Assembly: GCF_000741645.1 (NCBI RefSeq)
Contig: NZ_JGZD01000009.1
Coordinates: forward strand, 310,001-374,000
Source of the DNA: Bifidobacterium minimum
Lineage (GTDB): Bacteria > Actinomycetota > Actinomycetes > Actinomycetales > Bifidobacteriaceae
Length of the DNA stretch: 64,000 bases
Reading direction: 5' to 3'
Shown here: one piece after another, positions 36,275 through 40,240 of the stretch
Position numbering within the stretch: the stretch's first letter is position 1
Layout: each line of letters opens with the position of its first letter
Translations under genes and position numbers: made by a program
The notes under the pieces: generated by a model
Seen by the model: only the letters and a program-made list of their open reading frames with translations
The model's database searches: none
Told to the model about the DNA's origin: nothing

Positions 36275-37267
36275 TCAGACCACACGGTTGAAGGCCGACC
36301 CCGTGAAGAACGCGGCGATGGCGCGGACGATCTGGACGCTCAGCGCGCGATAGGCCTCGTCGTCCCTCCAGGCGACATGGGGCGTGAGCACGATGCCGGG
36401 CACCGATCGGAGCGGATCGTCAAGGGGGAGCGGCTCGTGGTCGAAGACGTCAAGACCCGCCAGAAGGTCGCCACGGAGAAGACGCCGAGTCAGCGCACCG
36501 GGTTCGATGACCTCGGCCCGTGCGGTGTTGACGACGATCGTTCCCGGGCGAAGACGCTCCAGATGATCGGCCGTGATGATGCCCGTCGTCGAATCGGTCA
36601 GCGGCAGATGGATGCTCGCGACGTCGCTGCGATGAAGGAGTTCGCCCAGATCGTCCACCGCGGTGACATGATGGGCCGCGACCGCCTCCTCATGGAGATG
36701 CGAGTTCCACACCAGCGTGGACATGCCGAATCCCGTCGCCATATCGGCCACGGCCTGCGCGATGCCGCCGAAGCCGATCAGTCCCAGTGTCCTGCCGTAC
36801 AGGGATATGCCGTCGAGGCCATCCCATCGCCCGGATTTCACGATGGCGTCCAGACGGCCGACCCGACGGGAAAGCTCCATGATCAGCGCGAACGTGTGCT
36901 CGGCGACGGCGTGGTCGCCGTATCGAACCACATTCGTCACGGCGATGCCCCGTTCCCTGGCTCGGGAAAGGTCGATGTAGCTGGCCACTCCGGTTCCGCC
37001 GAAGGAGAAGCACCGCACATGGTCGCTGAGGCGGTCGAACATCGAGTCGTCGACATGGAAGCCGATGACCATGACGGCGTCCGCGTCGGCGCATCTGTCC
37101 ACGATGACGTCGCCGTCAAGCGTCGCGTCGTCGTAGATGCGCACGCGGGCTATGTCGTGAAGCAGAGGCAGCGCCTCGCGGAATGGCTGAACCATGGATT
37201 CGATGATGCTGGGCATGACGACGAGCGGAAGATCCGTCCTGTCGTTCTGGGTGCTGATAAGGGCCAT
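36275..37267 (-). CDS. D-2-hydroxyacid dehydrogenase family protein
   Basis: This is an NAD-dependent D-isomer-specific 2-hydroxyacid dehydrogenase of 330 residues. LGLIGFGGIAQAVADMATGF is the NAD-binding glycine motif; VNTARAEVIEPGAL holds the catalytic Arg region, followed by the Glu in FDHEPLP and the catalytic His in LTPHVAW. VRYGDHAVAEHTFALIMELS is the family helix before the nucleotide domain. The substrate could be a small 2-keto acid or phosphoglycerate-like; it lacks the ACT domain of SerA. The start at 37267 follows TAGGGT by 7 nt, indicating leaderless expression. It is divergent from the transsulfuration leader. Confidence 0.87.
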   Translation of the reverse strand: MALISTQNDRTDLPLVVMPSIIESMVQPFREALPLLHDIARVRIYDDATLDGDVIVDRCADADAVMVIGFHVDDSMFDRLSDHVRCFSFGGTGVASYIDLSRARERGIAVTNVVRYGDHAVAEHTFALIMELSRRVGRLDAIVKSGRWDGLDGISLYGRTLGLIGFGGIAQAVADMATGFGMSTLVWNSHLHEEAVAAHHVTAVDDLGELLHRSDVASIHLPLTDSTTGIITADHLERLRPGTIVVNTARAEVIEPGALTRRLLRGDLLAGLDVFDHEPLPLDDPLRSVPGIVLTPHVAWRDDEAYRALSVQIVRAIAAFFTGSAFNRVV

Positions 37268-37280: not shown

Positions 37281-37359
37281 GAACATGATGGGAACGTGCG
37301 TGTGACGGTTGCGGCGGGTGGTCGTGGACGGGACGACACGCCGTTGTCGGGAGGCGTGT

Positions 37360-37372
37360 TATGGTGAGAACC
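37360..37372 (+). promoter_or_regulatory. -10 box TATGGT 7 nt before the polycysteine sORF
   Basis: TATGGT (37360-37365), then GAGAACC, then ATG 37373. No ribosome-binding site fits between, so the sORF would be the very 5' end of the transcript. Confidence 0.65.
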
Positions 37373-37405
37373 ATGTTCCATCTTCTGTGTTGTTGTTGTC
37401 GATGA
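37373..37405 (+). CDS. leaderless polycysteine leader peptide (10 aa)
   Basis: The sORF reads MFHLLCCCCR and stops at TGA 37403-37405. Four consecutive TGT codons (37388-37399) make its translation sensitive to Cys-tRNA. It starts 7 nt after a TATGGT -10 box and lies about 430 nt upstream of a cystathionine beta-synthase gene. Leaderless sORFs with several Cys codons in a row have been reported in mycobacteria as cysteine-responsive attenuators of sulfur genes. The arrangement here is the same in outline. The peptide itself probably has no function beyond ribosome pausing. Confidence 0.75.
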   Translation: MFHLLCCCCR

Positions 37406-37832
37406 CCGGCGCCTTCGGGCGAACGGTAGGCAACGCATAATTGGAGATGGGTTTCGCGGCGGTCCTGATGATTGTGATGACCGGTATGCCGCGAGTCTGA
37501 AGGGTTACGGTTGAAGTGTCCGTGGCCGTCGAGGTGAATCGCAGCCGGATGACGCCACACCCGTGTGATCGGCGTCGATGCGTCGAGTCGGTCGGATCGT
37601 GTCGTTGATCGTCCCTTCATGATGATGGCCGGTGGTGGCCGGCGGCAGCATGGTTCCGCGGCCGAGTGACCCGAGTGGCCGCGGCCTTACGCCGATGTTC
37701 CGGCACAACACCGCATCGGCACTGCATTTCCTTCCGATTGATCGCCTCCGTGGCCCGACGTCCGGTTCTCCGTGTTCCTCATCCGTCACCGTCCCGTCAC
37801 CCCATCAACGAATTCAGAGAAATCGAGCGATC
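37405..37832 (+). promoter_or_regulatory. structured leader of the transsulfuration genes (putative cysteine attenuator)
   Basis: This 428-nt stretch without a gene follows the sORF. Hairpin A (37405-37427) begins at the last base of the sORF stop: ACCG and CGCC pair with GGCG and CGGT around a TTCG loop, so a ribosome paused on the Cys codons would reach it. Hairpin B (37454-37494) pairs TCGCGGC-GGTC with GACC-GCCGCGA with a 5-nt bulge. Hairpin C pairs CCGCGGCC (37656-37663) with GGCCGCGG (37677-37684) over a 13-nt loop. None has a T-tract, so control could act on translation or Rho rather than by intrinsic termination. Confidence 0.6.
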
Positions 37833-38843
37833 ATGACCATCCACCAATCAACCATCGAACTCATCGGCGACACTCCTCTTGTCGCGCTCCACCACGTCGT
37901 CGAAGGCGTGCGCGCCACCATCGCGGTGAAAGTCGAGTATCTCAATCCCGGCGGCTCGTCGAAGGACCGCATCGCCGAAAGGATCATATCGGCCGCGGAG
38001 ACCGAGGGGAAGCTGGCCCCCGGAGGGGTGATCGTCGAACCCACCAGCGGCAACACGGGAGTGGGCCTGGCGCTGGTCGCCCAGCAGCGCGGATACCGCA
38101 CCATATTCGTTCTCCCCGATAAGGTGTCCGAATCCAAGAGGGCGGTTCTGCGGGCCTATGGCGCCGAGGTCGTGGTCACGCCCACGGACGTTGAACCCGA
38201 CGACCCGCGGTCCTACTACAGTGTGTCCGACAGGCTCGCCGCCACGATCCCCGGGGCCTTCAAGCCCGACCAGTACTCCAACCCGAACGGGCCGCTCAGC
38301 CATTACCGCACCACCGGACCCGAGATATGGCGCGACACCGACCATGCGGTCACGCATCTTGTGGCGGGGATCGGCACGGGTGGAACCATATCCGGCACGG
38401 GACGATTCCTCAAGGAGGCGTCCGACGGCAGGGTCGTGGTCGTGGGGGCCGACCCGGACGGATCTATCTACTCCAATCCCCATGACGTGCATCAGTACGA
38501 CGTCGAGGGGGTGGGGGAGGACTTCTATCCGCAGGCCTTCGACCGCACCATAGCCGACGACATCGTGCAGGTGACGGATGCGCAGGCCTTCGAGATGACG
38601 CGCAGACTCGCCGCCGAGGAGGGGCTTCTCGTGGGCGGATCCTCGGGCATGGCCGTGGCCGCGGCGGTGAGATACGCGAGGATGAGGGATCTTGACGAGA
38701 AGCAGCTTCTCGTCGTCGTTCTTCCCGATTCCGGACGTGGGTATCTCGAGAAGATCTTCGACGATGGATGGATGCGGGAGCATGGATACGGCGCCGTCGT
38801 CGACGCCACGACCCGGCCGTCCCTCGTGGCGCGATCCCGGTGA
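37833..38843 (+). CDS. cystathionine beta-synthase (catalytic core only)
   Basis: This is a PLP enzyme that joins serine (or O-acetylserine) and homocysteine to cystathionine. The PLP Lys is in NPGGSSKDRIAERI, followed by the substrate loop EPTSGNTGVGLA, the phosphate loop GIGTGGTISGTG and the ends VGADPDGSI, DVEGVGEDFYP and LPDSGRGYLEKIFDDGWM. The last three are typical of CBS rather than CysK. At 336 residues it lacks the C-terminal pair of regulatory CBS domains. It lies behind the polycysteine leader and 110 nt before a cystathionine gamma-synthase/lyase, so both probably form a homocysteine-to-cysteine route. The ATG at 37833 has only a weak GAGCGA site. Confidence 0.88.
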   Translation: MTIHQSTIELIGDTPLVALHHVVEGVRATIAVKVEYLNPGGSSKDRIAERIISAAETEGKLAPGGVIVEPTSGNTGVGLALVAQQRGYRTIFVLPDKVSESKRAVLRAYGAEVVVTPTDVEPDDPRSYYSVSDRLAATIPGAFKPDQYSNPNGPLSHYRTTGPEIWRDTDHAVTHLVAGIGTGGTISGTGRFLKEASDGRVVVVGADPDGSIYSNPHDVHQYDVEGVGEDFYPQAFDRTIADDIVQVTDAQAFEMTRRLAAEEGLLVGGSSGMAVAAAVRYARMRDLDEKQLLVVVLPDSGRGYLEKIFDDGWMREHGYGAVVDATTRPSLVARSR

Positions 38844-38953: not shown

Positions 38954-40240
38954 ATGACGGCGACAACCAATCGACCCACGAACTCCGCAGTATCTACGAA
39001 CCCCGCATCATCCACGAACTCCGAGAATTCCGCCGGCGCGGCATCACCCGTCTCGCCCGTCGACCTTTCCTCTGTCGACCTTTCCGCCATGGCCGTGGCG
39101 ACGCGCGCCATCCACGCGGGTCAGGAGCCCGATGCGGCGACGGGTGCGGTCGTTCCGCCGATATACATGACCTCCACGTTCAAGCAGGATGGCGTCGGAG
39201 GGCTGCGTGGCGGATACGACTACAGCAGATCGGTCAATCCCACGCGCGACTCCTTCGACACCCAGCTGGCGGCGATCGAGGGGGCCCGGCATGCGCTCGC
39301 GTTCTCGTCGGGTCTGGCCGCCATCGACGTGCTTCTCCGTTCCACGGTGAAGCCTGGCGATCGCATCCTTCTGGGAAACGACGTGTACGGCGGCACGTAC
39401 AGGCTGCTTTCGCAGGTGTTCGTTCCCTGGGGCGTCGGCCTTGACGTCGTCGACATGACGGATCTCGAGTCCGTCTCCCATGCTCTGGAATCCGCTGCGT
39501 ATTCGTATGTGTGGGTCGAGACCCCCAGCAATCCGCTTCTGGGGATCACCGACATAGCGGCCACATCCGAGGTCGCCCACCGGCACGGAGCCAAGGTCGT
39601 GGTCGACAACACCTTCGCCTCGCCGATTCTCCAAAGACCTCTCGATGAGGGCGCGGATGCCGTCGTGTACTCGACGACCAAGTACATCGGAGGCCATTCG
39701 GACGTCGTGGGCGGAGCGGTCGTGCTCAACGACGACGCGATCAGGGATCGTGTGGCCTTTCTGCAGAACGCCGCGGGGGCCGTGCCGTCGCCATTCGACT
39801 CATGGCTGGATATCCGCGGCCTGAAGACATTGGATCTGCGCGTCCACAGGCACAGCGAGAACGCCCTGGCCGTCGCGACGTGGCTGCAGTCGCGGCCCGA
39901 GGTGGAGCGCGTATGGTATCCGGGCCTCGAATCGCATCCCGGACATGACATCGCCGCGCGGCAGATGCGCGGAGGATTCGGCGGCATGGTGTCCATCCAG
40001 CTTGCCAGTGGGGAGGATGCCGCGAAGGCCTTCGCGGGCGCGACCAGCATCTTCACGCTCGCGGAGTCGCTGGGAGGGGTGGAGTCGCTGATCGAGCATC
40101 CGGCGGCGATGACCCACGCCTCCGTGTCGGGGACCACGTTGGAGGTTCCCTCCAATCTCGTTCGCCTGTCCGTGGGCGTCGAGGACGCCGATGATCTCAT
40201 CGCCGATCTTGACGCGGCGTTTGCGCGCATCGCCCGATAG
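38954..40240 (+). CDS. cystathionine gamma-synthase/gamma-lyase family PLP enzyme
   Basis: This Cys/Met-metabolism PLP enzyme has 428 residues. YDYSRSVNPTRDSFDTQLAAIEG and the aldimine Lys in YSTTKYIGGHSDVVGGAVV are diagnostic. ETPSNPLLGITDI, SPFDSWLDIRGLKTLDLRV and SLGGVESLIEHPAAMTHAS complete the family pattern. With the preceding cystathionine beta-synthase it most likely acts as gamma-lyase releasing cysteine, though gamma-synthase activity (MetB) cannot be excluded. A Ser/Ala/Asn/Pro-rich extension of about 45 residues precedes the fold. GAAAGGA (38939-38945) fixes ATG 38954. The intergenic DNA holds repeats of CATCGTCC. Confidence 0.9.
   Translation: MTATTNRPTNSAVSTNPASSTNSENSAGAASPVSPVDLSSVDLSAMAVATRAIHAGQEPDAATGAVVPPIYMTSTFKQDGVGGLRGGYDYSRSVNPTRDSFDTQLAAIEGARHALAFSSGLAAIDVLLRSTVKPGDRILLGNDVYGGTYRLLSQVFVPWGVGLDVVDMTDLESVSHALESAAYSYVWVETPSNPLLGITDIAATSEVAHRHGAKVVVDNTFASPILQRPLDEGADAVVYSTTKYIGGHSDVVGGAVVLNDDAIRDRVAFLQNAAGAVPSPFDSWLDIRGLKTLDLRVHRHSENALAVATWLQSRPEVERVWYPGLESHPGHDIAARQMRGGFGGMVSIQLASGEDAAKAFAGATSIFTLAESLGGVESLIEHPAAMTHASVSGTTLEVPSNLVRLSVGVEDADDLIADLDAAFARIAR

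Follow-up and report, generated by a model that had tools for sequence, protein, structure and literature searches.

Cysteine is often limiting for bifidobacteria in culture. In mycobacteria, leaderless polycysteine sORFs reportedly serve as attenuators that act at the level of translation, and the structure involved is said to act directly, by sequestering the RBS of the gene that follows. Translational attenuators of the erm type rely on four segments, with A:B and C:D paired in the off state and B:C paired when a ribosome stalls on A.

The available portions of papers citing the mycobacterial work treat leaderless polycysteine attenuators as established in that group. In Bifidobacterium longum, a leader peptide containing Cys codons upstream of cbs was already reported by Seliverstov et al. 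2005 (PMC1262725). According to the accessible text of that study, the other elements of an attenuator are missing at this locus, the mode of regulation is left open and Rho is suggested. The expectation of the sequence-only reading, that the locus described here would extend the mechanism to a new lineage and gene set, was therefore not borne out. A literature search, with most subscription journals outside its scope, yielded nothing later on the cbs leader of bifidobacteria. Of note, 15% of the mapped transcription starts of B. pseudolongum are leaderless, as given in the accessible part of PMC4782308.

The polycysteine sORF upstream of cbs

The window, i.e. the whole stretch of 64,000 nucleotides that was analysed, contains the following features at this locus.

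37360..37365, + strand: -10 box TATGGT, extended by a TGT in front; read in the letters, and 97/99 family loci have TANNNT 6-8 nt ahead of the start.
37373..37405, + strand: segment A, the putatively leaderless sORF MFHLLCCCCR with its stop codon; read in the letters, with equivalents in 98/99 loci.
37378..37450, + strand: sORF hairpin, with a 5' arm at 37378-37400 (sORF), an inner stem-loop at 37405-37427 and a 3' arm at 37429-37450; based on fold z, pair probabilities and relatives.
37833..38843, + strand: cbs, encoding a cystathionine beta-synthase-like PLP enzyme; PF00291, TIGR01137.
38954..40240, + strand: cystathionine gamma-synthase/lyase gene; PF01053, PRK07811.

The TATGGT box, its 7-nt spacing and a sORF with four TGT codons in a row, all named in the sequence-only reading, can be read directly in the letters. 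The spacer GAGAACC (37366-37372) separates the box from the ATG at 37373, and transcription is predicted to start at the A of this codon, which would make the sORF leaderless. Its codons are ATG TTC CAT CTT CTG TGT TGT TGT TGT CGA TGA, the four TGT lying at 37388-37399. The long leader claimed before cbs is present, with 427 nt counted between the sORF stop and the cbs ATG (37833) instead of the 428 nt given.

Directly downstream of the leader, profile matches identified two genes of cysteine metabolism, cbs and a cystathionine gamma-synthase gene, in line with the transsulfuration genes proposed earlier. The best model for the cbs product was TIGR01137, with 492.6 bits, below the cut-off of 510, and a match that stops at position 320 of the 457-position model; the gamma-synthase product scored above the cut-off of PRK07811 (668 versus 513 bits). 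Judging from the gap of 110 nt between them, the two genes probably form one operon. On the other side of the leader lies a divergent 2-hydroxyacid dehydrogenase gene (36275-37267, minus strand). A perfect 7-bp inverted repeat, ACACGCC-N10-GGCGTGT (37336-37342 and 37353-37359), was observed with its right arm abutting the -10 box; an ACGCC...GGCGTG repeat was retained upstream of the -10 box in several relatives and absent in others. The repeat at 37336-37359 is a possible operator.

A search with the cbs protein in 189 genomes of the Bifidobacteriaceae returned 99 loci counted as orthologous, with E values up to 2.2e-144; all of them were examined. They come from 97 genomes, two genomes carrying a second copy. 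Seven Bifidobacterium records (L003-L009; e.g. B. tibiigranuli, B. subtile and B. psychraerophilum) exhibited the same sORF layout and were excluded from the family counts, as they duplicate genomes already counted, and 11 distant homologues that are not cbs orthologues (L181-L191) were left out of all counts. A sORF was scored when it had at most 16 aa, at least 3 Cys and a TANNNT at N4-10 ahead of its start. The script detected such a sORF upstream of cbs in 97 of the 99 loci; when the upstream regions were dinucleotide-shuffled, it detected one in 1 of 990. One more was found by eye, giving a total of 98/99; in this locus (L107), MTNFSCCCCR is present, but TANNNT is absent at the required spacing. 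The sole locus without a Cys-run sORF (L171) is a second cbs copy, located downstream in the same species. In this genome (G036; L133 and L171), two cbs genes lie about 1.5 kb apart (540530 and 543008), and the second is preceded by a coding end resembling Cys/Met metabolism, with no sORF.

Among the 97 sORFs, the distance from the -10 box to the start was 7 nt in 85, 6 nt in 6 and 8 nt in 6, and TGN stood in front of the box in 89. The final residue was Arg in 93 and Leu in 4, and the sORFs contained 3 (55 sORFs), 4 (41) or 5 (1) Cys, encoded across the family by TGT 315 times and by TGC 19 times. Overall, the comparison across the family that had been suggested as a check found the predicted leaderless architecture, the Cys codons and the first hairpin all conserved. 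The Cys-run sORF is real, and the leader peptide upstream of cbs is very likely cysteine-responsive.

A search for CCCR-stop in the window's own genome gave one other match only, with no TANNNT upstream of the in-frame starts inspected. In the genus, TGYTGYTGYCGNTRA had matches in at least 105 of 112 genomes; among the matches listed, six lying away from cbs were inspected, none of them with TANNNT preceding a start. Matches to GCATAACTTGARAT were found in 39 of the 112 genomes, 38 of them adjoining cbs by coordinates and the remaining one in G106. The hairpin block GCATAACTTGAAAT was observed in G106 (L199), which has no cbs orthologue.

Outside the family, a Cys-run sORF preceded cbs in 19 of the 73 actinobacterial loci taken from the best 80 by similarity. 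All 19 (within L041-L082) had a GTG start, were of the putatively leaderless type and ended 61-192 nt ahead of cbs (e.g. MLAHLSCCCH in Promicromonospora and MSLSCRCCRR in Agromyces). A different sORF, MMTNCCCNVCCCAFLNRNDVCKH, was observed behind TATCAT-N6-ATG in 4 of the 11 distant loci (L182, L183, L189 and L190, with one residue changed in L189), about 360-375 nt before a distant cysteine-synthase-like gene in four small genus genomes.

The sORF hairpin

A first hairpin had been proposed to begin at the stop codon of the sORF. This hairpin is present and conserved, but its beginning was misplaced: it takes in most of the sORF, which forms the 5' arm (37378-37400). In the window, it folded at -34.2 kcal/mol (z -4.26), a value reached by 0/200 shuffles, and the complete 460-nt leader folded no better than shuffles (z +1.13). 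In relatives, the stop codon is followed by a conserved stem-loop and then by a nearly fixed block around GCATAACTTGAGATAG. Folds of the leader start suggest why this block hardly changes: it forms the 3' arm of the hairpin, opposite the sORF, which supplies the 5' arm. We also considered the block as an rRNA antitermination boxA and dropped this candidate, the genome's own 16S leader (L193) sharing only TTGAGA with it. In the leader, no Rfam covariance model matched at its gathering score, the best E of 1 being at the level of chance, and the sole Rfam match in the window was a tRNA located elsewhere.

Pairs of the outer stem were counted by script in a fixed register, and those of the inner stem on an alignment (A2) of 35 of the 41 prepared references, the other six being excluded because their inner loops were larger or they did not fit in some other way. 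The covariation count on a MAFFT alignment (A1) was not used because sORFs with three and four Cys align out of register. The five pairs just 5' of the Cys codons matched their own arm better than a foreign one (4.21/5 versus 4.09; own value reached by 25/5000 permutations). No covariation support was found for the outer pairs at -12..-6 (583/5000 permutations), and the pairs at the Cys codons hardly vary and are too invariant to judge covariation. The inner stem had a covariation score of 0.068 versus 0.033 in shuffled alignments (reached by 0/500 shuffles), and was 88.9% paired, versus 25-40% when slid. Two of its pairs were changed on both sides, versus 0.7 in shuffles (60/500). Across both stems, two-sided change lends modest support to the hairpin.

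Long-range pairing and ribosome stalling in silico

The distance from the sORF stop to cbs ranged from 80 to 983 nt in the family, with a median of 316 nt. With the target RBS this far away, an extra sequestering segment seems to be needed, and the following elements were considered in the window.

37425..37461, + strand: segment B, the hairpin 3' arm and following bases, proposed anti-sequesterer; own-versus-foreign match, and stalled-state pairing in the window.
37591..37612, + strand: alternative to C, pairing with the cbs start region when no ribosome is stalled; pair probabilities mostly 0.7-0.9, not seen at that place in relatives.
37733..37749, + strand: segment C, candidate sequesterer TCCGATTGATCGCCTCC; the site (about -100) where many relatives carry theirs, weak in the window alone.
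37815..37844, + strand: segment D, the cbs ribosome-binding region and start codon; unpaired probability of -18..+3.

In the mechanism that we propose, transcription would begin at the ATG of the leaderless sORF. When Cys-tRNA is ample, a ribosome would translate the sORF and depart, so that A would pair with B in one hairpin and C with D, leaving cbs and the gamma-synthase gene little translated. When Cys-tRNA is scarce, the ribosome would wait on the Cys codons and cover A; the freed B would capture C, D would open and cbs would be translated. The transcription start, translation of the sORF, stalling, the cysteine response and co-expression of the two genes are the parts of this model that we infer.

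In many species, the complements of D and of B converge on the same middle segment C, often at -80 to -170 from cbs (e.g. GGAATCCCGTTTCA in L091 and GTATCGTCTCATTTC in L164). The RBS and C co-vary, as in L145 (CGTGAAACAAG with CTTGTTTCACG) and L135 (GATAACGAG with CTCGTTATC). In an own-versus-foreign test, 90 leaders in 58 clusters were scored against leaders from other clusters; L107, L171, L172, L173 and L175, which have no segments, were excluded from the segment analyses, and four leaders with a middle of at least 560 nt from this test onward. The match to the own leader middle was positive in 45 of the 58 clusters for D and in 43 for B (0/20000 permutations in each case), and a joint B + D site was found at p <= 0.05 in 22 of the 58 clusters (mean z 1.52, SE 0.23). 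A first and more lenient scan, which looked for duplexes in which the B and D sites coincide, had shown no excess (25/94 leaders versus 100/470 shuffles); the own-versus-foreign, joint-site and folding tests, which express the same idea on the same data, were chosen after this null result. Judged by these computations, B, C and D are co-adapted within species.

Of 91 leaders with a ribosome footprint placed on the Cys codons, 49 gained more than 0.05 in the mean unpaired probability of the RBS and 6 showed a fall, versus 7 and 6, respectively, with an equal-sized control block in mid-leader. In the 56 cluster representatives (L110 and L144 left out), the mean RBS gain on stalling was +0.107 (SE 0.016), with 37 opening and 1 closing, and 19 showed no gain above 0.05. 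The gain was +0.014 with a shuffled middle (22% up, 12% down), +0.025 with a foreign hairpin (Wilcoxon p 1.6e-6) and +0.029 with a foreign middle (p 9.9e-6); the folding of RNAs of 300-450 nt, on which all these values depend, is uncertain. In computation, covering A thus opens D. The gain peaked with the A-site at Cys 1-3 (0.107-0.109); a ribosome placed four codons before gave +0.076, and one 24 nt beyond Cys 1 gave 0.049. As the gain is not specific to the position of the Cys codons, the model accounts for opening whenever a ribosome is kept on the sORF; the hold itself would be provided by the Cys codons.

In the window itself, the mean unpaired probability of the RBS (-18..+3) increased from 0.288 in the free to 0.463 in the stalled state, a gain matched by 0/160 shuffles. 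In the stalled fold, B paired with 37733-37749, where relatives carry C, with pair probabilities of only 0.2-0.4; complementarity was found between 37739-37745 and 37827-37833, and between 37733-37740 and 37438-37445. The window's own B and D matches did not rise above expectation (residuals -3.1 and -2.3, fixed-register scores) and its joint B + D site had a p of 0.80. Moreover, the mid-leader control block likewise opened the RBS (0.29 to 0.42), which remained 0.48 open with the ribosome 24 nt further on. For the exclusive A:B/C:D versus B:C pairings, the own-versus-foreign, joint-site and folding tests of the family were thus positive, as was the stalled fold of the window, and the own-match and joint-site tests of the window were negative. 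Given these negatives, the effect of the control block and the pairing of the cbs start with 37591-37612 in the free fold, the mechanism is stronger for the family than for the window sequence.

Possible modes of regulation and related systems

Taken together, bifidobacteria seem to switch on two cysteine-making genes through ribosome stalling on Cys codons, which would reshape the mRNA. We assign a probability of about 0.68 to a cysteine-responsive translational attenuator acting over about 400 nt. The in silico behaviour fits a cysteine-responsive attenuator, as the sequence-only reading proposed; it differs from the mycobacterial layout in its target RBS, which lies 80-983 nt away in the family.

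The alternative that survives best, which we consider unlikely, is Rho-dependent transcription attenuation, in which a stalled ribosome would alter the fold of the C-rich leader and so keep Rho from loading on it. Rho was proposed for cys operons and B. longum cbs in the accessible text of Seliverstov 2005 (PMC1262725), the leader is long, and its stretch from 100 to 21 nt ahead of cbs is rich in C and poor in G (means of 0.35 and 0.21 in 81 leaders; 0.42 and 0.20 in the window). However, such stretches may be common ahead of start codons in these genomes, and Rho control does not predict that the RBS should match C, and C match B, within a species. Less probable still is a sORF leader that responds to cysteine by another route, such as mRNA stability, the re-use of ribosomes or the binding of a regulator to the conserved hairpin; it would suit the variation in leader length (80-983 nt) and the lack of in silico RBS opening in about a third of clades, but not the shuffle and swap controls of the folding test. 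Classical transcription attenuation with an intrinsic terminator appears very improbable: terminator-like sites occurred in 9/94 leader middles versus 18/470 mononucleotide shuffles, but they were missing from 85/94 relatives and from the window leader (0 versus 0.6 expected), and the accessible text of Seliverstov 2005 (PMC1262725) reports none either. A functionless chance ORF is excluded in practice by the conservation of the Cys run (97/99 loci versus 1/990 shuffles).

We lean slightly towards one family-wide switch, in which the sORF is a hairpin arm and its release would be relayed by a fast-evolving C to the distant RBS. This would be a relayed form of the mycobacterial attenuator, with leaders of 80-103 nt as the direct form. 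If true, cysteine supply would be linked to a ribosome-based sensor in nearly all cbs-bearing family members examined, and the four-segment reading makes the mode of regulation left open in 2005 testable by point mutation.

The B. longum cbs leader (PMC1262725) is alike in gene, genus and a Cys run adjoining the stop codon, and a leaderless start is not discussed in the text available from that study. Over this report, the present analysis likely adds the hairpin, the distant sequesterer, the family-wide survey and a testable account of how the sORF might act on a distant target. The uORFC-8-2 motif of Rhodobacterales cysS, as described in the accessible part of PMC8632094, also has tandem Cys codons in a uORF, lying within a stem; it differs in its intrinsic terminator, its two Cys codons, the gene concerned and its alphaproteobacterial hosts. 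The mycobacterial attenuators share the tandem Cys codons, the cysteine-metabolism genes downstream and, by prediction, the leaderless sORF and the control of translation, whereas in most bifidobacterial species a long distance separates the sORF hairpin from the RBS. Three species of Bifidobacterium with 80-103 nt from stop to cbs (L172, L173 and L175) look nearer to the mycobacterial layout; in two of them, L172 and L175, the ribosome-binding site directly follows a segment complementary to the Cys codons. With the erm-type attenuators, the locus would share the four-segment scheme, the inducer being an antibiotic there and, presumably, a missing amino acid here.
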